Shown here in pieces: positions 11,207 to 58,404 of a stretch of 64,000 nucleotides of DNA (the stretch's first letter is position 1; each line of letters opens with the position of its first letter). The notes under the pieces are model-generated. The model ran no database searches, had not been told where the DNA came from, and saw only the letters and a list, made by a program, of their open reading frames with translations. Both the position numbers and the translations under genes were made by a program. The DNA lies in the NCBI RefSeq assembly GCF_008329945.1, contig NZ_CP035807.1, forward strand, positions 3,348,001 through 3,412,000. The letters are read 5' to 3'. The DNA comes from Thiospirochaeta perfilievii (lineage in GTDB: Bacteria > Spirochaetota > Spirochaetia > DSM-2461).

Positions 11207-13741
11207 CTATTTTACTAAAGCTTCTGCTTCTTCGTAATTCTCTTTTACGGCTAGGTCATATGGAGTATCCCCATCCTTATTTATATTCTCTTTATTGGCT
11301 CCTATATCAAGAAGATAATCAATTACTTCAATATCAGCATGGTATTTAATTGCTAAATGTAGAGGTGAAAATCCTTTATTATCCATAGAGTTAATATTTT
11401 TATCATCAAAAAATGTATTAACACTACTTAGACCATATGTTAGGGCAATAGATACAGGTGTATCCCCATACTTATTTTCTGCATATATATCAGACTTTTT
11501 ACTAATAAGTATTTTTACAGTATCTTTATTTTTACCAAAAACTGCAGCGTGTAAAATTGTGTTTCCTTGTCTATCCCTAAGTGAAATATCTGCTCCAGCA
11601 TCTAAAAGTAGGTTTAGTATATCTGGGAAGTTATTTTTTACTGCATAAAATAAGGGAGTTTGCCCATTATTATCCCTAGCATTTAAATTGGATTTGTTTT
11701 TAATAAAAAAGGTTACAATATCAGTATCTTCTGTTAAAACCGCCTCGTGTAGTGGTGTTCTGTTTTTAATATTTTTTGCATTGATATCAGCCTTTTTCTC
11801 AACTAAAAGGTGGGCGGACTCATATGCATTCCAATAGACACAGGAGTGTAGAGGTGTATTGAGTTGGTTATCCTTTGCTTCAATTGATGCTCCCCTTTCA
11901 ATTAGTAGGTTAGCAACTATAACATTGTCAGTTGTAATTGCTTGATGAAGAGGTGTCTCCCCATTAATGTTTTTTGCATTTATATCAGCACCTTTATCTA
12001 GGATTACTTGAACAATCTCCTTTGAGCCCCAGTCTATAGCATAGAATAGTGGAGTATTTTGTCTGTTATTTCTAAGTGATACTAGTTCAGGGGTTAATAT
12101 TTCAGTTGCAAACTCTACACCTTTTTGAAAAATAAGATCAAATGGGTTATCTCCACTGTTGTTTATGGCAAAAAAATCAGCTTTATTAACATTAAGTAGG
12201 TTTATTATATCTGAGTTGCCAACCATAATAGCTTCATGTAGTGGTGTAGACCCACTTTTGTTTCTAGTGTCAACCTTTGCTCCTTTTTTAATTAGGAACT
12301 CTATAATTTTAGAGTCAGCTTTCTCCCTTATAGCTATAATAAGAGGAGTATCTCCATCATTATTTTTAAAATTAATGTTGTTATTATTCATTAACCACTC
12401 AAGAACTACTTCACCTTTTTTTATTCCAAGAGTTAAAGGAGACTCTCCTTTATCATTTTTTGCATATATCTCTGCGTCTTTTTCAAGTAGTAATAGTGCA
12501 ATTGATTTATTGTTTTTATTTACAGCTTCAGTAAGTGGCGTATTTCCTGCCTTATTTCTAACTGTAACATCAGCCCCATTATTAATTAATAACTTGGCAA
12601 TAGAGCTATCTAGTTTAAGGGAGAGTGTTAAATGTAACGGAGTATTACCAAAATTATCCTTTGCATCTATGTCTGCTCCCTTTTTAATTAAATAGGACGG
12701 AATTTGATCTGAGTAACTAAATGCTAAAGAGAGATGTAGTGGTGTATTATTATTAAAATCCCTGGCATCAATATCTGCACCACTATTAATAAGTAGTTCG
12801 ATTATTTTAAAGTTATTGTTAACTACTGCACCATGAAGAGCTGTATTTCCAGGTCTATCCTTAAGTTCAAGGTTTACACCCTTTTCTATAAACAGTGCCG
12901 CAAAACCATAATGTCCATTTTCTGAAGCAATATGGAGGGCTGTTTTATTGAAATCGTATCTAAACTCTAAGTCCTCTGTTTTTAGAACTCTATAGATATA
13001 CTCAAAATCATCATTTTGTGAGTTCAAAGATCTATTTTTTATTAAAATCTCCGCTGTTTTAGCATGATCTAAAGAATCTTTATCCGTTAATGCATAATCA
13101 AGGGGTAGAAGTGATGCCTTATCCCTTAAATTTACATCAGCTTCACTCTCTATTAGATACTCACATACTTTATAATCTCCAGCTTGAGCTGCTAAATGTA
13201 AGAGAGACATGCCCTTACTATCTACGCTTTTTATACTCTCTGGGGAGATAAGTGCTTTAACACTCTCTATACCCATTTTTACAGCTTCATTGTAAGGTGT
13301 TCTTCCTAAATTATCTTTAATGAAAATGTCCGCACCATTTTTTGCCAAGATTTTTGTTAACTGGGTATTTCCACTTTTAATAGCTATATGAAGCGGTGTA
13401 TACCCCTGTTTATCTTGTATGTTTATTTTTGCTCCTTGAACAATTAAAAGTTGAGCTATTGTTATGTTTCCTGACTCGCAAGCTACATGTAGTGGTGTTC
13501 TTCCATTTTTATCTAGTTCATTAATATTAGTATCAATTTTAAATATTTCATTTAATTTTGATTCATTTCCAGAAAGGACTAATGCGTGGAGTGAGTCTGT
13601 TACTACCCCTTCATCTACTGTTTCTACATCCTTTGAGTTATTAGAGTTTCCCTCTTTTACTTCTGGTTGAGAAAGAGCATTAGTAAAAGATGTAAATAAG
13701 AATAGATTGACTAGTATAAAAATAAAGCCTTTTTTAGACAT
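11207..13741 (-). CDS. Large exported ankyrin-repeat protein
   Basis: 844 residues: a signal peptide (about 1-24, hydrophobic FIFILVNLFLFTSFTNALS), a short acidic linker, then an almost unbroken array of roughly 23 ankyrin repeats of about 33 residues (recurring TPLHxAxxxG...LLxxGADIxxKDxxGxT) to the C-terminus. There is no lipobox and no membrane anchor after the signal peptide, so it is probably periplasmic or secreted. Ankyrin arrays bind protein partners; the target cannot be read here. One internal repeat (near 230-255) is degenerate. Ribosome site AGGAG is 5 nt before the ATG. It is divergent from tex across a shared promoter region. Confidence 0.9.
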   Translation of the reverse strand: MSKKGFIFILVNLFLFTSFTNALSQPEVKEGNSNNSKDVETVDEGVVTDSLHALVLSGNESKLNEIFKIDTNINELDKNGRTPLHVACESGNITIAQLLIVQGAKINIQDKQGYTPLHIAIKSGNTQLTKILAKNGADIFIKDNLGRTPYNEAVKMGIESVKALISPESIKSVDSKGMSLLHLAAQAGDYKVCEYLIESEADVNLRDKASLLPLDYALTDKDSLDHAKTAEILIKNRSLNSQNDDFEYIYRVLKTEDLEFRYDFNKTALHIASENGHYGFAALFIEKGVNLELKDRPGNTALHGAVVNNNFKIIELLINSGADIDARDFNNNTPLHLSLAFSYSDQIPSYLIKKGADIDAKDNFGNTPLHLTLSLKLDSSIAKLLINNGADVTVRNKAGNTPLTEAVNKNNKSIALLLLEKDAEIYAKNDKGESPLTLGIKKGEVVLEWLMNNNNINFKNNDGDTPLIIAIREKADSKIIEFLIKKGAKVDTRNKSGSTPLHEAIMVGNSDIINLLNVNKADFFAINNSGDNPFDLIFQKGVEFATEILTPELVSLRNNRQNTPLFYAIDWGSKEIVQVILDKGADINAKNINGETPLHQAITTDNVIVANLLIERGASIEAKDNQLNTPLHSCVYWNAYESAHLLVEKKADINAKNIKNRTPLHEAVLTEDTDIVTFFIKNKSNLNARDNNGQTPLFYAVKNNFPDILNLLLDAGADISLRDRQGNTILHAAVFGKNKDTVKILISKKSDIYAENKYGDTPVSIALTYGLSSVNTFFDDKNINSMDNKGFSPLHLAIKYHADIEVIDYLLDIGANKENINKDGDTPYDLAVKENYEEAEALVK

Positions 13742-17030: not shown

Positions 17031-18568
<1,538 letters not shown>

Positions 18569-19032
18569 CTACGAGAAAGGGAAGCTTAGTTTTTACTAAG
18601 TACCTTAAAGATTTATCTTTAAACCCTAAATGTCTTGGGTAAAAGACATTCAAGAGAGGTAACTCTTGTAAAGTAAAACTGCAGTACAATAGGTTAGTAT
18701 TTCTTCCTCCTTCTATTTTTATATTTGTCCTAGTGACAGTTAAGTCTTTGGTAAGTATTATTCTGGTTCGATTCCAGTGGCTTAAATATCAAACTTTTCT
18801 ATTAGAAATGTTTGACTTGCCTTAATTGGCATAAAACTCAATTTAAGTTTCTAAGAGACTTTTTTAGAGTACAACCTTATCGAAGTTTCTATAAAACTTC
18901 TGTCAGGTACAACTAAGTAGCGAAGGGTATAAAAATTATAGTGTGAAAGCACAAATATTTTTGATAGTAACGATATGTCTGTCGAAGTTTCTTTGAAACT
19001 TTTGTCGACTATATTTTGCTAGCAAAATATAT
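18569..19032 (+). other. 16S-23S internal transcribed spacer without an intact tRNA gene
   Basis: 464 nt without the tRNA-Ile or tRNA-Ala often found here. It contains a T-arm-like stretch (CTGG-TTCGATT-CCAG, about 18762-18776) that may be a tRNA remnant. Repeated hairpins are built on GAAGTTT/AAACTTC (about 18890-18901 and 18980-19003). A terminal stem is made of AAAATAT-ATGGTCAAGC with the matching sequence after 23S (GCTTGACCATATTTT), the likely RNase III processing stem of 23S. Confidence 0.75.
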
Positions 19033-22002
<2,970 letters not shown>

Positions 22003-22192
22003 ATTTTTATTTTCCTTAACAGGATATGATTTTTATACCCTATTTAGTTACTCATAATCTTAGATTATGAGGGAGTATAAAGAATGCTTGCATTCTTGGG
22101 CTCTTAGCTAAGCTTTTTGTTGAAATAAACTTAAGTTTTCTTAAGTTGTTTTAATTAAACACTTTTTTTAAGAGTTTTTAATTAAAATTTTT

Positions 22193-22302
22193 GTCTAGTG
22201 ATGATAGCACTTGGGCCACACCCGTTCCCATACCGAACACGGAAGTTAAGCCAAGTTGCGCCGATGGTACTGCGTTAGTGGGAGAGTAGGTGATCGCTAG
22301 AC
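22193..22302 (+). rRNA. rrf: 5S ribosomal RNA, operon copy
   Basis: 110 nt; GTCTAGTGAT pairs with ATCGCTAGAC to close the molecule. The central CCCGTTCCCATACCGAACAC and TAAGCC segments are typical. A T-run at 22303-22309 follows and probably ends the operon. Confidence 0.96.
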
Positions 22303-51036: not shown

Positions 51037-54000
51037 ATGAAGAAATTTAACTCAGTTGTAGCACTACTATTAGTTGGAAACTTATTATTTGGTGATGTTT
51101 TAGAATTAGCTTCACCTGGACTTACTGCAAGTTCAGCTTATTACGAAAGTAATAAAAACACATCAATAGCAATAAAAAATCCTGCTTTAACAGCGGATAT
51201 ACAAAGATATACTTTTGATTTAAGTTATCTATTATTACAGGGAATAACAGGGGATGAGACAGGAACAGGTCACTCTATAGGTATAGGTGGTGCCTTACCA
51301 TCTAAGTACGGTGTCTTCTCAACATCCTTAAACCTACTTTTAACCAACGGGTTAACCACATCTGATCTTAAGGTGGGAACAGCCGCAGGTTTAAATTTAA
51401 ACTTTTCAAAGGAGATCTATAGTGATCTCTATTTTGGAGCTGGATTATCATCTATATTTGGTTCTGATTCAACTGGTTTTGATTGGAGTCTTGGTTTAAA
51501 TCTTGGAATTGTCAAAAATTCAGGAGACTTATCTAAATACTTTAAGGATGTTAGATGGGGTTTTGCTCTAAATAATTTAGGAAAAGGGTATAAACAGGAT
51601 GGTTTAATAGATGCAAACTCACCATCACCAACCTTTACTCCCTCTGGTTTTTTTGAATTCTCTCTTCTTAATAATTCTGTTTTAGATCTAAATATCGCAT
51701 CTGAGGTTTCACTTCCATCTTTAACGGATCTAAATCTTGAAATTGGAGCAAGGGCTGTTTTATATAATAAAATAATTATAGATACATCTTTAAATGCAAA
51801 TCTAAGGGAATTAATTGATGGAGATGTAAGTAGGTTAATTCCATCCCTCTATTTTGGGTATGATTTTAATCTAGGTTCTGATGAAGCAAGGGGTTCACTA
51901 TCTGCTAATCCATATGCAAACGGAGTTTGGGCTATAGGAGCTTCAGGAACCGTTCCCTTAGGAGATAAGGATAAAAATCCTCCTGAAGTGGAAATTAATT
52001 ATAATGATATTCAGTATGTATCTCCAAACTTTGATGGAGTAAAGGATGAATTAAACTTTCCTGTAAATGCCACTGACGAGAGATATATTGTTGGATATGA
52101 GGTTGTTATTAAGGATAACTTTGGTAAAGTTGTAAAAAGAATAGTAAATAAGGATGAAAGACCTGAAAATGAGTCTATAAAAAATCTATTTACTAAACTA
52201 GTTGGTCCAAAAACAGGAATACCAGTGCCAGAGAGTTTTAGATGGGATGGTAAAAAAGATGATGGAGAGCTAGTCCCTGACGGTCAATATAGCTTCTTTA
52301 CAAAGTTTATAGATGATAATGGAAATTCAACCACATCTGAAATCTATAAATTCTACATAGATAATACAAAACCAAGTCTTGAGATCTCTGAACCTTCCGG
52401 TTTAGACCTGATCTTTAGTCCAAATGGTGATGGTAATAAGGATCAGTTATTAATCCCTCAATCAGGGAGTAATGAAGTAAGATGGTATGCTGAGATTACA
52501 GATTTTCTTGGTAATGCTGTTAAATCCCAGGCTTGGGATAATAATGAATTAAGTGATTTTACCTGGGATGGAAAGGACGATAGTGGCCAATTAGTTCCAG
52601 ATGGTGTGTATAAATATAAGGTTTCAAGTACAGATTTAGCAGGTAATAGCAACGAAGACTCTGTTGATAATATAATTATCAATACAAAACAGCCTCCTAT
52701 AGGGATTAATATAGACACTAATACCTTTTCTCCAAATGATGACGGTGTAAAGGACTACATGGAGTTTGTTTTAGATATACCAGTGAAAACAGGAATTCTT
52801 AACTGGAATTTAGTTATTAAAAATAAAAGTGGGGGGATTGTTAACGAGTTCTCTACTAAAAAACAGGGTTACTCAGTAATAGAAGATAATATTAGATTTA
52901 ATGGAGAGGACTTAAACGGCAAGTATCTTGAAGAGGGGATCTATACTGGAGAGTTAAGTGTAGTTTATCAAAATGGACATAGTCCAAAAGTTTTATCCCC
53001 TGAATTTAGTATCGATAATACTGCTCCAAAGGCTAGTGTAAAGGCTAAATATACTATGTTTTCTCCAAATGGAGATGGTAGTAAGGATCAGATTATATTT
53101 GATCAAACATCCTCAAAGGAAGAGGAGTGGTTTGGAGAGATTTTTGATGAGTTTGGAACATCAGTTTATAATGTTAACTGGAAGGGTGAGATTGATAAAC
53201 TTTTCTCATGGAATGGAAAAACAGATGATGGAGAACTTCTAAATGACGGGAAATTCAAATATATTTTATCATCAACTGATAAGTCTGGTAACAGCTACAA
53301 AGGTGAACCTGTTGAATTTGAGATTAATACAACTCCAACAGGAATAGACTTAGCCCTTAATAAAGACTCTTTTTCCCCTATTGATGGTAAAGACTTTATA
53401 GAACTAAAACCTGTTGTTCAAAGTAGCGTAAACCTAACTAACTACTCATTAGACATTGTTGATAGTAGGGATAGGGTTGTTAAAAATATATCAAATAGTG
53501 GAGAATTAGCCCCATCCTATAAGTGGTATGGAAAGGACAACCGTTCTAATCAGTTAAAGGATGATAACTACTATGCTAGAATATCCGGGGAGTTTTTAAA
53601 TGGAAACAAGGTGGTAACACTCTCTTCTCCAATTATATTAGATACTACAACTCCTGAAGTAACAGTAGTAAGAAAAGACAAATTTAGCGTATTTAGTCCT
53701 AATGGTGATGGTAAAAATGATTTTATAACTTTCTCTCAGAAAACTTCCAATGAAGATCAATGGATTGGAGAGGTAAAAAATAGTATTGGTGATACAGTAT
53801 TTACATCTAAATGGAGTGGTTTTGCTCCTAATGAATATATGTTTACCGGTAAAGATATGGATAACAAAAATCTTCCTGATGGTAAGTATATTTATACTCT
53901 TTATTCTAGGGATAAGGCTGGGAACATTGGTCGATCTAAGGATATGAGTGTTGAAATTGATACTGAAAATGTAGAACTCTTTGTAAGTAGTGATAAAACT

Positions 54001-56262
54001 CACTTTTCGCCTAATGGGGATAGTGTAAAAGATAGTATCGATTTTATTCCTGTTATTAAAAAAAGTGATGGTATCGACTCTCTAACCTATGATGTATTAG
54101 ACAAGGGTAATAAAACCATCTATTCAAAAAAACTTACAGGAGACTTTACTAATAAAATAACCTGGAATGGTAGAAGTAGTGATAATAAGAAAGTTGCTGA
54201 TGGGGAGTATTTAGTTCGTCTTACTGTAAATTACAAAAGGGGGGACTCTCCTAATGCATCTACTAAATTTATCCTAGATACAGTGGCTCCTGTAGCTAAC
54301 ATTACAGTTAATAACCTAATATTCTCACCTAATGGTGATGGAAATAAAGATTTTGCAGAGATTATTAATAGTTCAGAGGATAAGGCGACATGGACTCTCT
54401 CTATAAAAGATGAAGAGAATAGGGTTGTTAAAGAGAGAACCTTAAATGGTCTAGTAATTAAAGAGTGGAATTTTGATGGTAGAGCCCAGGATTTATCTCT
54501 ACTTAATAATGGTCGATATACTTACTCTTTAAATGGAATTGATGAAGCTGGTAATAGTTTTAACTCTAAAAATGTTATATTAACTATGGATAACAGCTCT
54601 TCTACAGTACTCGTAACCAATGATTATGAAGTTTTTTCTCCTAATAATGATAAAATAAAGGATGAAATAACATTTACAACAAGGGTTGATTCAAAAAGTC
54701 CTGTAGAGTCTTGGCTATTTAAAATTGTTAATGAGAAAAATGTAACTGTAAAAGAGTTTAGTGGAAAAAGAGCTCCTAAAGAGATTGTTTGGAACGGACT
54801 TAAGGATGATGGTAAAAACCTTGTTAGTCAGGGTAAATATAAGGGCGTTATGAGTGTTATCCATGAAAATGGTAATAATCCTTCAACTTCAACACCTCTA
54901 TTTGAATTAGACTCACTATATCCAGAGATTGATATAAAAACCTCTAATAAGCTATTTTCACCTAATGGTGATGGTTTAAAAGACTCTGTTTATATTACTC
55001 AAAAAGCTACTGGAGAGGATCTATATCATGGTGTCATTTATGATGATAAAAATAGTGTTATAAATGAGTGGTACTGGAAAAACTCTATAGATAATCTAAA
55101 CTGGGATGGTAAGGACTCATCTGGAAACACTGCTAGGGATGGTGTATATAAGTATGTTGTTGATACTACCGATTTAGGTGGGAATAAAAGTGTAAAAACT
55201 ATTAAGGATATTACAATAGATACAGAGGATACAGATATCTTTATTACTTATAAAAAACCTGTATTTGCACCGGACCTTTCAAATAGACTCGGGGGGCAAA
55301 TATTTGGTTTAATTGTAAATAATAGAAAGGGTATTGAGAGCTGGAAAATAACAATTAAGGATAAGACAGAAGTTATTAAGGTTGTAGAAGGTGAAGGATC
55401 AATTCCTGATACATTAGAGTGGGATGGAAGGGATAAAAATGGTTCCTTTACAAATGGTTTATTAACTGCCGAGTTTAACGTTGTTTATACTAAAGGGAAC
55501 TCACCTACCTACTTAACTAAAGAGTTTGTTGCAGATAGTGATACCCCTTTAATTAGAGTAGAGACAACACCTACTCCATTCTCCCCTGATAACGACTTTG
55601 TAGATGATGAGTTAGAGATTAGTATAGGTGTAAAAGATCTCTCTAGTATAAAGAGTTGGTCATTTGATATAAAAGATCCTAAAGGAAATGACTTTATCTC
55701 ATTCCAAGGAGAAGGTAAGCCTGGTAATAAAATTATTTGGGATGGTAAAAGTAGTAAGGGTGAGCTAGTTCAAGCAGCAGAAGAGTACTCATATACTATG
55801 AGTGTAGAGGATGTTGCAGGACATACTGGAGTATTTAGAGGTGAGATACCTGTAGATATTATGGTTATTAAAGATGGAAATAAGTTAAAAATTAGGGTTT
55901 CAAGTATAATTTTTGAACCTAATTCTTCAAGATTAGCTCTGTCTGGAACTAATGGGGAAGCAAACTTAAAAATACTTAAAAGATTAAGTGAAATATTAGA
56001 TAAATACTCAAGTTATAAAATTGAGGTTGAAGGTCATGCCCATAATATTTATGGAAATAGAATAACTAAGAGTCAAAGAAGTAGCCTAATAGATTTTTCT
56101 AGAGAGAGGGCAGAAGAGGTAAAATCTTCCCTTGAAGATCTAGGAATCTCAGGTAACAGAATGACAACAGTTGGTATTGGTGGTAATGACCCTGTAGTTG
56201 AATTTGATGATGTAGAGAATGCATGGAAGAACAGACGAGTAGAGTTTGTTCTTGTGAAATAA
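51037..56262 (+). CDS. Giant surface protein: outer-membrane barrel, 12 alternating Ig-like repeats, OmpA domain
   Basis: 1741 residues. Signal peptide 1-20. Residues about 25-300 resemble a PorV/UPF0164-type outer-membrane barrel (YGVFSTSLNLLLT, LNLNFSKEIYSDLYFGAGLS). Twelve repeats of about 105 residues begin with a motif like FSPNGDGxKD (near 327, 460, 565, 674, 777, 885, 989, 1096, 1198, 1306, 1407, 1513), a FlgD-Ig/CHU-like fold with possible Ca2+-binding Asp/Asn loops. The C-terminal ~120 residues are an OmpA-type peptidoglycan-binding domain (SSIIFEPNSSRLALSG, VEGHAHN, RAEEVKSSLEDLGI, NRRVEFVLV). It may link the outer membrane to the wall. GGGGAGG lies upstream of ATG; rlmKL follows after 9 bp. 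Confidence 0.88.
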   Translation: MKKFNSVVALLLVGNLLFGDVLELASPGLTASSAYYESNKNTSIAIKNPALTADIQRYTFDLSYLLLQGITGDETGTGHSIGIGGALPSKYGVFSTSLNLLLTNGLTTSDLKVGTAAGLNLNFSKEIYSDLYFGAGLSSIFGSDSTGFDWSLGLNLGIVKNSGDLSKYFKDVRWGFALNNLGKGYKQDGLIDANSPSPTFTPSGFFEFSLLNNSVLDLNIASEVSLPSLTDLNLEIGARAVLYNKIIIDTSLNANLRELIDGDVSRLIPSLYFGYDFNLGSDEARGSLSANPYANGVWAIGASGTVPLGDKDKNPPEVEINYNDIQYVSPNFDGVKDELNFPVNATDERYIVGYEVVIKDNFGKVVKRIVNKDERPENESIKNLFTKLVGPKTGIPVPESFRWDGKKDDGELVPDGQYSFFTKFIDDNGNSTTSEIYKFYIDNTKPSLEISEPSGLDLIFSPNGDGNKDQLLIPQSGSNEVRWYAEITDFLGNAVKSQAWDNNELSDFTWDGKDDSGQLVPDGVYKYKVSSTDLAGNSNEDSVDNIIINTKQPPIGINIDTNTFSPNDDGVKDYMEFVLDIPVKTGILNWNLVIKNKSGGIVNEFSTKKQGYSVIEDNIRFNGEDLNGKYLEEGIYTGELSVVYQNGHSPKVLSPEFSIDNTAPKASVKAKYTMFSPNGDGSKDQIIFDQTSSKEEEWFGEIFDEFGTSVYNVNWKGEIDKLFSWNGKTDDGELLNDGKFKYILSSTDKSGNSYKGEPVEFEINTTPTGIDLALNKDSFSPIDGKDFIELKPVVQSSVNLTNYSLDIVDSRDRVVKNISNSGELAPSYKWYGKDNRSNQLKDDNYYARISGEFLNGNKVVTLSSPIILDTTTPEVTVVRKDKFSVFSPNGDGKNDFITFSQKTSNEDQWIGEVKNSIGDTVFTSKWSGFAPNEYMFTGKDMDNKNLPDGKYIYTLYSRDKAGNIGRSKDMSVEIDTENVELFVSSDKTHFSPNGDSVKDSIDFIPVIKKSDGIDSLTYDVLDKGNKTIYSKKLTGDFTNKITWNGRSSDNKKVADGEYLVRLTVNYKRGDSPNASTKFILDTVAPVANITVNNLIFSPNGDGNKDFAEIINSSEDKATWTLSIKDEENRVVKERTLNGLVIKEWNFDGRAQDLSLLNNGRYTYSLNGIDEAGNSFNSKNVILTMDNSSSTVLVTNDYEVFSPNNDKIKDEITFTTRVDSKSPVESWLFKIVNEKNVTVKEFSGKRAPKEIVWNGLKDDGKNLVSQGKYKGVMSVIHENGNNPSTSTPLFELDSLYPEIDIKTSNKLFSPNGDGLKDSVYITQKATGEDLYHGVIYDDKNSVINEWYWKNSIDNLNWDGKDSSGNTARDGVYKYVVDTTDLGGNKSVKTIKDITIDTEDTDIFITYKKPVFAPDLSNRLGGQIFGLIVNNRKGIESWKITIKDKTEVIKVVEGEGSIPDTLEWDGRDKNGSFTNGLLTAEFNVVYTKGNSPTYLTKEFVADSDTPLIRVETTPTPFSPDNDFVDDELEISIGVKDLSSIKSWSFDIKDPKGNDFISFQGEGKPGNKIIWDGKSSKGELVQAAEEYSYTMSVEDVAGHTGVFRGEIPVDIMVIKDGNKLKIRVSSIIFEPNSSRLALSGTNGEANLKILKRLSEILDKYSSYKIEVEGHAHNIYGNRITKSQRSSLIDFSRERAEEVKSSLEDLGISGNRMTTVGIGGNDPVVEFDDVENAWKNRRVEFVLVK

Positions 56263-56271
56263 GAGGATATA

Positions 56272-58404
56272 TTGATTAAAGATTTAAAATTATTTTGTAC
56301 CTGCCCTTTAAATACAGAGGAGTTATTAGTTAACGAGCTTGTAGATTTAGGGGCAGAAAATTGTAAGATATCACCATCAGGTGTTGCTTTTAATGGAAAT
56401 TTAGAGATTGTCTATAAGGCTTGTCTATGTTCTAGAATTGCAGGAAAACTGTTTCTAGAATTAGTTGAGTTTGATCTTAATGATCAACATGATATCTATA
56501 AATTTGCTAAAGAGATTCCATGGGATGAACACTTCTCTGTTGATGATACCTTTGCTACTTCTGCTGCTGTAGTTAAAAGTAGGGTAAAAAATAGTAAATA
56601 TGCATCCCTGTTAGTAAAGGATGCTATAGCTGATTATTTTAAAGATAAGTATGAAAGAAGGCCAAATGTAGACCCTAAAAAACCTTCGGTTAAAGTACAT
56701 CTGCATATTAGTAAAAATAAGGCAAGTATCTCCCTTGATCTCTCAGGGGAGTCTCTGCATAAACGGGGGTATAGGGATGGGAATGCCCATGCTGCTTTAA
56801 AAGAGAATGTTGCTGCTGCACTACTATATCGTGGGAACTGGCCAAAAATGTCCAAGGAAGGTCTAAACTTTTTAGATCCAATGTGTGGTTCAGGAACACT
56901 TTTAATAGAAGCTGCATATATCGCTACAAATACCCCTCCTGGATATTATAGACACTACTATGGGTTTCTAGGTTGGCTTAAACACGATGTAGACCTATGG
57001 GATGAGGTCTTTGATGATGTTGAAAAGTCTATTAGACCTTATAGTGGAGTAATACGAGGTTTTGATATGGATAGGGATGCAATATCTCAATCTATTCATA
57101 ATATTAGTAATGCTGGTTTCTCTAAGCTAATTCACGTAGAAAAATCTGAGTTATCTGAATTTGAAGTTGTTGAGAGTATGACCTACAAAAGTGGATTAAT
57201 ATGTATAAACCCACCCTATGGTGTAAGGTTAGGGGATGTCCCTGAACTTAAAAAACTTTATGCAGAGTTTAGTAACCTGTTTTTAGAAAAATTACCTGGT
57301 TGGAAACTCTCTGTAATTACTGGCGAGGATGAACTTTCAAGGGTTATACCACTAAAAATCGATAAAAAACATACCCTTTTTAATGGGGCAATAAAGTGTA
57401 CAGTCTCCCATTTTACCCTTGAGGATAATAAAAAGAAGGTTGAAGCACCTCTTTCCCAGGGTGGTATTTCCTTTAAAAATAGATTGATAAAACGTAGTAA
57501 ACACTTAGGTAAATGGGCTAAAAGATCAGGGGTATCCTGTTACAGAGTATATGATGCTGATCTTCCAGATTACAATGTAGCAATAGATATATATGAGAAT
57601 ACTTGGATTACTGTTTCTGAATACCAAGCTCCAAAAGAGATTGAGTTACATGTTGTAAAAAAAAGGTTAGATGAAGTTTTAAGGGTTGTTCCAGAGGTTT
57701 TAGACGTAGATAGTGATAACGTATATCTAAAAGTTCGAAAAAGACAAAAAGGTTCGACACAGTATTACAAAAATGATACATCAAAAGAGTTTAATATTGT
57801 ACATGAGTCGGGAGCAAAATTTTATGTTAACTTTAAGGATTACCTAGATACTGGTATATTCTTAGACCATAGACCTATAAGGCGATGGATTAGGGATAAT
57901 GTTGAAGGAAAGTCTCTTTTGAATTTATTTAGCTATACAGGTACAGTTACTAGTTTAGCAGCTATAGGAGGTGCTAAATCAACAACAACAGTTGATGCAA
58001 GTAAAACCTATATAGAGTGGGCTAAAAGAAATATACAGTTAAATGGACTCTATAGTGAGAATCATAAATTCTTTGTTTCTGATACCAAGGAGTGGTTAAA
58101 AAAAGATAGAAATAGTTACGATGTAATATTTTTAGACCCACCTACCTTTTCTAACTCTAAAAGTGGAAGAGATATATTTGACGTGCAAGTGGATTATATT
58201 GAATTAATTCAATTATGTGCTAAAATACTTAAAAAGAGTGGTGTAATAATATTTTCAAATAACTTTAGAAAATTTAAATTTGATGAAACACTCTTTCCTG
58301 ATCTTGAGATAAAAGATATTAGTAGTAGTACTATAGATCAAGATTTTAGTAATAATCCTAAAATACATAGATGTTGGGAGATTAAATGGCAGACGAACCA
58401 TTAG
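56272..58404 (+). CDS. rlmL: Bifunctional 23S rRNA methyltransferase RlmKL
   Basis: 710 residues, the fused form. The THUMP domain (about 45-160) is followed by the RlmL half, with the SAM motif LDPMCGSGTLLIEAAY near 205 and catalytic NPPYGVRL near 318. The C-terminal RlmK half has LLNLFSYTGTVTSLAAIGG near 550 and DPPTFSNSK near 625. The two halves methylate G2445 (N2) and G2069 (N7). Start is TTG 56272 with AGAGGA nearby. It overlaps the next gene by 19 bp. Confidence 0.95.
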   Translation: MIKDLKLFCTCPLNTEELLVNELVDLGAENCKISPSGVAFNGNLEIVYKACLCSRIAGKLFLELVEFDLNDQHDIYKFAKEIPWDEHFSVDDTFATSAAVVKSRVKNSKYASLLVKDAIADYFKDKYERRPNVDPKKPSVKVHLHISKNKASISLDLSGESLHKRGYRDGNAHAALKENVAAALLYRGNWPKMSKEGLNFLDPMCGSGTLLIEAAYIATNTPPGYYRHYYGFLGWLKHDVDLWDEVFDDVEKSIRPYSGVIRGFDMDRDAISQSIHNISNAGFSKLIHVEKSELSEFEVVESMTYKSGLICINPPYGVRLGDVPELKKLYAEFSNLFLEKLPGWKLSVITGEDELSRVIPLKIDKKHTLFNGAIKCTVSHFTLEDNKKKVEAPLSQGGISFKNRLIKRSKHLGKWAKRSGVSCYRVYDADLPDYNVAIDIYENTWITVSEYQAPKEIELHVVKKRLDEVLRVVPEVLDVDSDNVYLKVRKRQKGSTQYYKNDTSKEFNIVHESGAKFYVNFKDYLDTGIFLDHRPIRRWIRDNVEGKSLLNLFSYTGTVTSLAAIGGAKSTTTVDASKTYIEWAKRNIQLNGLYSENHKFFVSDTKEWLKKDRNSYDVIFLDPPTFSNSKSGRDIFDVQVDYIELIQLCAKILKKSGVIIFSNNFRKFKFDETLFPDLEIKDISSSTIDQDFSNNPKIHRCWEIKWQTNH

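Follow-up and report, generated by a model that had tools for sequence, protein, structure and literature searches.

A single-copy spirochaete protein with a predicted outer-membrane barrel, an alternating Ig-like array that in its class changes by four domains and an OmpA-like domain: a candidate tether between outer membrane and wall

The 64,000-nt stretch of DNA analysed here (the window) carries, at 51037-56262 on the plus strand, one ORF of 1741 amino acids, which we call the tether gene after the function proposed below; it is present in one copy in the 3.7-Mb genome. In its product, FlgD_ig, CHU_C, Big_13, and OmpA score above their Pfam cut-offs. A methyltransferase gene, RlmKL-like by eye, lies at 56272-58404 (+), with a TTG start 9 bp past the tether gene, and an RlmKL-like gene stands directly 3′ of the tether gene in six loci, the window among them. 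No conserved gene neighbourhood was found around the tether loci; no neighbour is shared by more than 15 loci, and the most frequent ones vary by clade. Elsewhere, the window holds an 844-aa protein built almost wholly of ankyrin repeats and matching PEGA weakly (11207-13741, -), and a full 16S-23S-5S rRNA operon (17031-22302, +).

The protein begins with a signal peptide (residues 1-19, MKKFNSVVALLLVGNLLFG; 51037-51093, +) that is type I by eye and has a putative cleavage site; since cysteine is absent from the whole chain, there is no lipobox. Residues 20-310 (51094-51966, +) correspond to the barrel-like N-terminus suspected in the initial annotation, which had called for a structure prediction of this domain. 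No Pfam family was found in the region at E ≤ 1. An AlphaFold2 model (pLDDT 90.9, pTM 0.86), built with 67 homologues as input, consists of an N-terminal hatch and fourteen strands, so that a domain lying outside the membrane, the outcome that would have spoken against the annotation, did not arise in the model. On structure alignment (VIA-align), FadL and PorV gave the top Z of 27.1, with an rmsd of 3.1-3.2 Å over 265-268 residues; the solved FadL, PorV, TodX, and Bacteroidota BAM-complex chains scored Z 22-27, and the next barrel class about 19. The window barrel also shares the NPA motif of the FadL/PorV superfamily: N48-P49-A50 is invariant among the 17 homologues aligned, and the motif is present across the phylum. 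Unlike the solved FadL/PorV-type chains, which have 345-444 residues, the window barrel has only about 290, is fused to an Ig array, and has no known substrate. Barrels from outside the organism's class scored 17.6-29.2 bits against the PorV/PorQ model NF033709 (cut-off 90), and 16.7 bits against PF03349 (cut-off 29.7), all below threshold. We confidently predict that the N-terminus is a 14-strand membrane barrel of the FadL/PorV type. Its predicted odd turns have 7, 12, 2, 17, 7, 14, and 4 residues and its even turns 4, 2, 6, 3, 3, and 2. Long odd and short even turns are usual in barrels with periplasmic termini and, because the strand number is even as well, both barrel ends probably face the periplasm.

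The barrel is not always part of the same chain. In one treponeme clade, it is encoded by a separate gene directly upstream of the Ig-OmpA gene, with gaps of -13 to +66 bp, and a signal peptide is encoded at the start of the Ig-OmpA gene itself; that the split genes adjoin supports the idea of two modules acting together. In Leptospira-type members, a barrel was found neither in the same ORF nor in the flanking stretch fetched, and a search for the barrel on plasmids gave no match.

Downstream of the barrel, cutting the array at FSPNGDG-type anchors defined twelve Ig-like repeats, R1 of 131 aa and R2-R12 of 102-110 aa, in line with the twelve repeats of about 105 residues counted originally. 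Pairwise identity among them is 15-39%. For R2-R11, the odd/even split ranked best by pairwise score among all 126 equal bipartitions, with mean scores of 124 within types and 68 between types, and models trained solely outside the class labelled these repeats A,B,A,B,A,B,A,B,A,B. The A/B clustering that a repeat alignment had been expected to reveal is therefore there, with R2-R11 split perfectly by parity. The alternation had been described as running without exception from the first repeat to the last, which holds for R2-R11 and fails at both ends. The best bipartition of all twelve repeats placed R1 with the A types, so that R1-R2 reads A′-A, and the best split of R2-R12 placed R12 with the B types, so that R11-R12 reads B-B′; strict alternation including R1 and R12 was rejected on these results. 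R12 had been misread as type A because it carries the A-like end motif DVAGH, and the end motifs listed at the time were eleven, that of R1 (DDNGN) being missing. The architecture of the window protein is F-(AB)5-Z. Cap F is R1 (51979-52371, +), an A-like Ig domain with an insert in the NKDERPEN... region, delimited by anchor cutting, pairwise scores, and HMMs. R2 (52375-52683, +) is A1, the opening A domain of the alternating array, as indicated by pairwise scores and by position-specific and out-of-class models. R11 (55225-55536, +) is the final B domain and gives a position-specific match to B3 of proteins with three AB pairs (n = 3). Cap Z is R12 (55540-55857, +), a B-like Ig domain by pairwise scores, HMMs, and the model.

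To survey the family, HMMs were built for A, B, F (R1-like), and Z (R12-like) domains, and 80 named tether loci were fetched, almost all of them labelled spirochaetes and many uncultured or environmental. Most genomes sampled from the phylum and from the class contain relatives, and nearly every complete member reads F-(AB)n-Z by HMM labelling. We thus describe a phylum-wide spirochaete family whose members nearly all follow the order F-(AB)n-Z-OmpA and mostly carry a barrel at the N-terminus, and the A-B alternation whose presence in other spirochaetes had been left to be looked for runs through essentially all of it. When A and B models trained only on out-of-class sequences were applied within the class, all 797 of 797 repeats were typed as their position predicts, and the alternation is therefore not a training artefact. 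The two types are sharply told apart by a few near-absolute positions, and the distinct end motifs first noticed in the window protein generalize family-wide as D-x-A-G-N in A and Y-x-(N/K)-G-N in B. B domains carry three extra residues (G-I-E type) relative to A, and the repeat spacing is 104 aa past an A and 107 aa past a B. Among complete ORFs, some organisms being counted twice, n = 3 was found 75 times, n = 1 34 times, n = 5 ten times, and n = 7 four times, together with a few variants. Outside the class, two arrays end in two or three Z-type domains (FABZZ and FABZZZ; L151 3504-6899 and L152 3415-6426), another route to lengthening, and an n = 2 paralogue without a barrel (L157 4557-7085, -) carries the lipobox ILVISGC; judging by this motif, its product is probably a lipoprotein form of the tether. 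L166 and L167 encode FABABABZ proteins without a barrel and no barrel ORF was found nearby, and the L166 genome also has a fused copy, L176.

Within the class, n took only the values 1, 3, 5, or 7 in the sampled genomes, giving arrays of 4, 8, 12, or 16 Ig domains. The A-B pair had been proposed as the true repeating unit; it is indeed the minimum unit, but in the class change comes in two pairs, that is, four domains. Position-specific models made from the n = 3 proteins tell A1, A2, A3, B1, B2, and B3 apart, and their agreement of 564/564 is a resubstitution figure that was not cross-validated. The n = 5 arrays of L141 and L172 read A1 B1 A2 B2 A3 B1 A2 B2 A3 B3, an order that fits tandem copying of B1-A2-B2-A3, and every in-class n = 1 array reads A1 B3, which fits loss of this block. 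The independent gains and losses fit copying or deletion of this one block. In the window protein, R3-R6 (52687-53961, +) and R7-R10 (53965-55221, +) are assigned through homologues as two such four-domain blocks (each B-A-B-A), although its own blocks have diverged and the pattern is less clean there. A class tree built from the F and Z caps and the OmpA domain shows at least ten changes of n, five to n = 5, four to n = 1, and one to n = 7; all ten are by an even number of pairs, and six are forced by well-supported branches. A block tree supports L141 and the window clade having arisen separately, with a later additional copy in the n = 7 clade. Assembly collapse is an unlikely source of n = 1, as the repeats differ far too much to be merged. 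The four-domain rule is strong in the sampled class and not absolute in the phylum, and the independent events are modest in number. A universal rule that n is always odd was rejected phylum-wide by L157 and the FABZZ and FABZZZ variants; it holds in the sampled class only.

Whether these steps reflect structure or chance bears on the length rule alone. With three to five gains, three to four losses, and one n = 7 clade, the independent events are few enough that the steps might be an accident of a handful of recombination events with no structural rule behind them, and the n = 2 paralogue and the Z-type variants outside the class agree with this; we regard it as a serious possibility, though not an even one. 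Against it, ten even changes in the class would be expected about once in 1000 under a fair-coin parity null, and the six well-supported ones once in 64 under the same null. Moreover, with repeats only 15-39% identical in the window protein, DNA similarity is not obviously directing the recombination. A bolder reading, which we consider unlikely, is that the array acts as a quantised molecular ruler, each structural period of which would comprise four domains; the wall-binding domain would face the wall only with whole periods (4, 8, 12, or 16 beads), and the number of blocks would set the distance from the outer membrane to the wall in flagellated spirochaetes.

The C-terminal part of the chain is an OmpA-like domain (residues 1615-1741, followed by the stop codon; 55879-56262, +). 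The OmpA C-terminus recognized in the initial annotation scores 34.8 bits against PF00691 (gathering score 27.2), and its model is canonical (pLDDT 93.4). The arginine of the wall-binding motif (Arg1691 here) is present in 129 of 129 sequences. At the DAP-coordinating position, all 87 of 87 class members have Asn, Val, or His and 28 of 42 out-of-class sequences have Asp, counts that ignore phylogeny; in the window protein, the residue is His1669. TDx7NxxLSxxRA has been given as the DAP-binding motif (PMC5104382), and the window protein departs from it, reading EGHAHN...LIDFSRERA, with Asp replaced by His and Arg kept. Tp0624 of Treponema pallidum, another spirochaete OmpA-like domain with Arg kept and Asp lost, bound no DAP, and ornithine replaces DAP in most spirochaetes, as noted in the same study (PMC5104382). 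Its N-terminal domains are different from those of the window protein, with no barrel and no Ig array described (PMC5104382). From these residues, the altered pocket of the class appears fitting for ornithine-type peptidoglycan. The missing Asp, together with the behaviour of Tp0624, counts against the tether reading favoured below (PMC5104382). Because the DAP-coordinating residue is His here and never Asp in the class, we put peptidoglycan binding by the OmpA-like domain no higher than likely.

Several other functions could be imagined for such a protein. Its best NCBIfam match is Lsa66_OmpA (NF053608), at 430.5 bits, below the curated cut-off of 700, with the best stretch at residues 1246-1739; no genome among 393 in the phylum sample passed this cut-off. 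Lsa66 has been reported on live leptospires, where it binds laminin, fibronectin, and plasminogen (PMC3130794), and the closest solved multi-domain folds include those of giant Ig arrays like SiiE, so the Ig array might lie outside the cell as a surface adhesin, binding partners or surfaces. We find this improbable: the OmpA domain downstream and the 14-strand barrel upstream put both array ends in the periplasm, the outer loops of the predicted barrel are short, and family members are common among spirochaetes that are free-living or come from uncultured environmental lineages, while surface detection in Leptospira was based on recombinant protein and antisera. Leptospira-type relatives such as Lsa66 (LIC10258) do have a signal peptide, F-A-B-Z, and a C-terminal OmpA-like domain; Lsa66, however, is about 600 aa long with n = 1 and no barrel, and has been studied as a host-binding adhesin (PMC3130794). 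The F-A-B-Z and OmpA order is common to the short relatives L002-L007, and the window protein has two extra four-domain blocks.

The strong fold match of the barrel to FadL, TodX, and PorV, the NPA hatch motif invariant in the aligned class members, and the making of the barrel as a separate protein in one treponeme clade would also suit a protein concerned mainly with transport or assembly, in which the barrel serves as a channel for hydrophobic substrates or for docking, with an Ig-OmpA arm that does no more than position it. The arm is nevertheless retained without the barrel in Leptospira-type members, neighbouring transport genes are not consistent, and the barrel is shorter than the solved FadL/PorV-type chains; we give this reading little credence. 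Descent from a type IX-like secretion system, with the Ig repeats as type B sorting domains handled by a PorV-like barrel and the protein a relic or a substrate, appears very remote. T9SS sorting domains are single and C-terminal, whereas here twelve internal domains are followed by OmpA. SprA was matched in 0 of 21 genomes, although no control genome matched either. The repeats do pass the CHU_C cut-off and the T9SS type B model TIGR04131 (63.5 bits, cut-off 35), the window barrel is PorV-like, and PorE-PorP-type B CTD complexes are known from Porphyromonas gingivalis (PMC9143113). The parts of that Bacteroidota bridge are of the same kinds, namely an outer-membrane barrel (14 strands in SprF), a CHU_C-type domain, and an OmpA-like peptidoglycan-binding domain (PMC9143113); there they are separate secretion-system proteins and here one chain with an internal Ig array, and PorE has TPR and propeller domains in place of Ig repeats. 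By analogy, the window protein resembles a one-chain PorP-PorE bridge, a likeness that stops short of established T9SS membership.

We favour, with somewhat better than even confidence, a single-chain tether from the outer membrane to peptidoglycan, made of the barrel, the Ig arm F-(AB)n-Z, and OmpA on the wall. To the domain order, A/B code, four-domain steps, barrel prediction, and pocket change described above, this reading adds a topology, wall binding, a tether function, and a flagellar rationale that we infer from them. A FadL/PorV-type barrel of predicted fold would sit in the outer membrane with both ends facing the periplasm, and from it would hang an arm of Ig-like beads, F-(AB)n-Z, with n = 5 in the window protein. 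At the end of the arm, the OmpA-like domain would grip the wall through its invariant arginine, its pocket apparently changed toward an ornithine type and away from a DAP type. Copying or loss of the block B1-A2-B2-A3 would alter the arm between 4, 8, 12, and 16 beads, or about 15-60 nm if extended at about 4 nm per bead, and the long arm would probably keep the outer membrane tied to the wall across the periplasm that holds the flagella. Some members may have the arm outside the periplasm, as Leptospira relatives of the Lsa66 type lack the barrel and Lsa66 has been reported on the cell surface (PMC3130794). OmpA and Pal likewise join an outer-membrane part to an OmpA-like wall-binding domain with an invariant Arg, but their linkers are short compared with the 4-16 Ig domains of the tether family, and class members are without the DAP-coordinating Asp.

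The flagellar marker fliG was present in 165 of 166 strong-match genomes, the exception being an 87%-complete assembly, and in 43 of the 82 remaining genomes; this correlation counts genomes rather than independent events, and a single clade may account for the families without fliG. Carriers, then, are flagellated, but flagella do not require the tether protein, as fliG occurs without it in Borrelia-sized genomes (f5), in family f9-g14, and in the 1.1-Mb treponeme G056. The pattern is consistent with a tether useful in a flagellated periplasm and is no proof of a link.

To our knowledge, no dedicated single-chain link from an outer-membrane barrel to the wall is known as described in spirochaetes. 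In the literature searched, the coverage of which was incomplete, we found no account of the fused domain architecture, the F-(AB)n-Z code, the steps of four domains, or the pocket pattern. We offer the novelty as a lead, in which the parts were already known and their combination is apparently undescribed. It would be misleading if such a protein were automatically annotated as a host adhesin or as carrying T9SS sorting domains. The pocket change alongside ornithine-type peptidoglycan opens wall recognition in spirochaetes to direct test, and the four-domain steps offer a rare, simple, and testable rule by which repeat proteins may lengthen. A long arm in the periplasm would matter for the question of how a membrane remains attached around internal flagella in motion.
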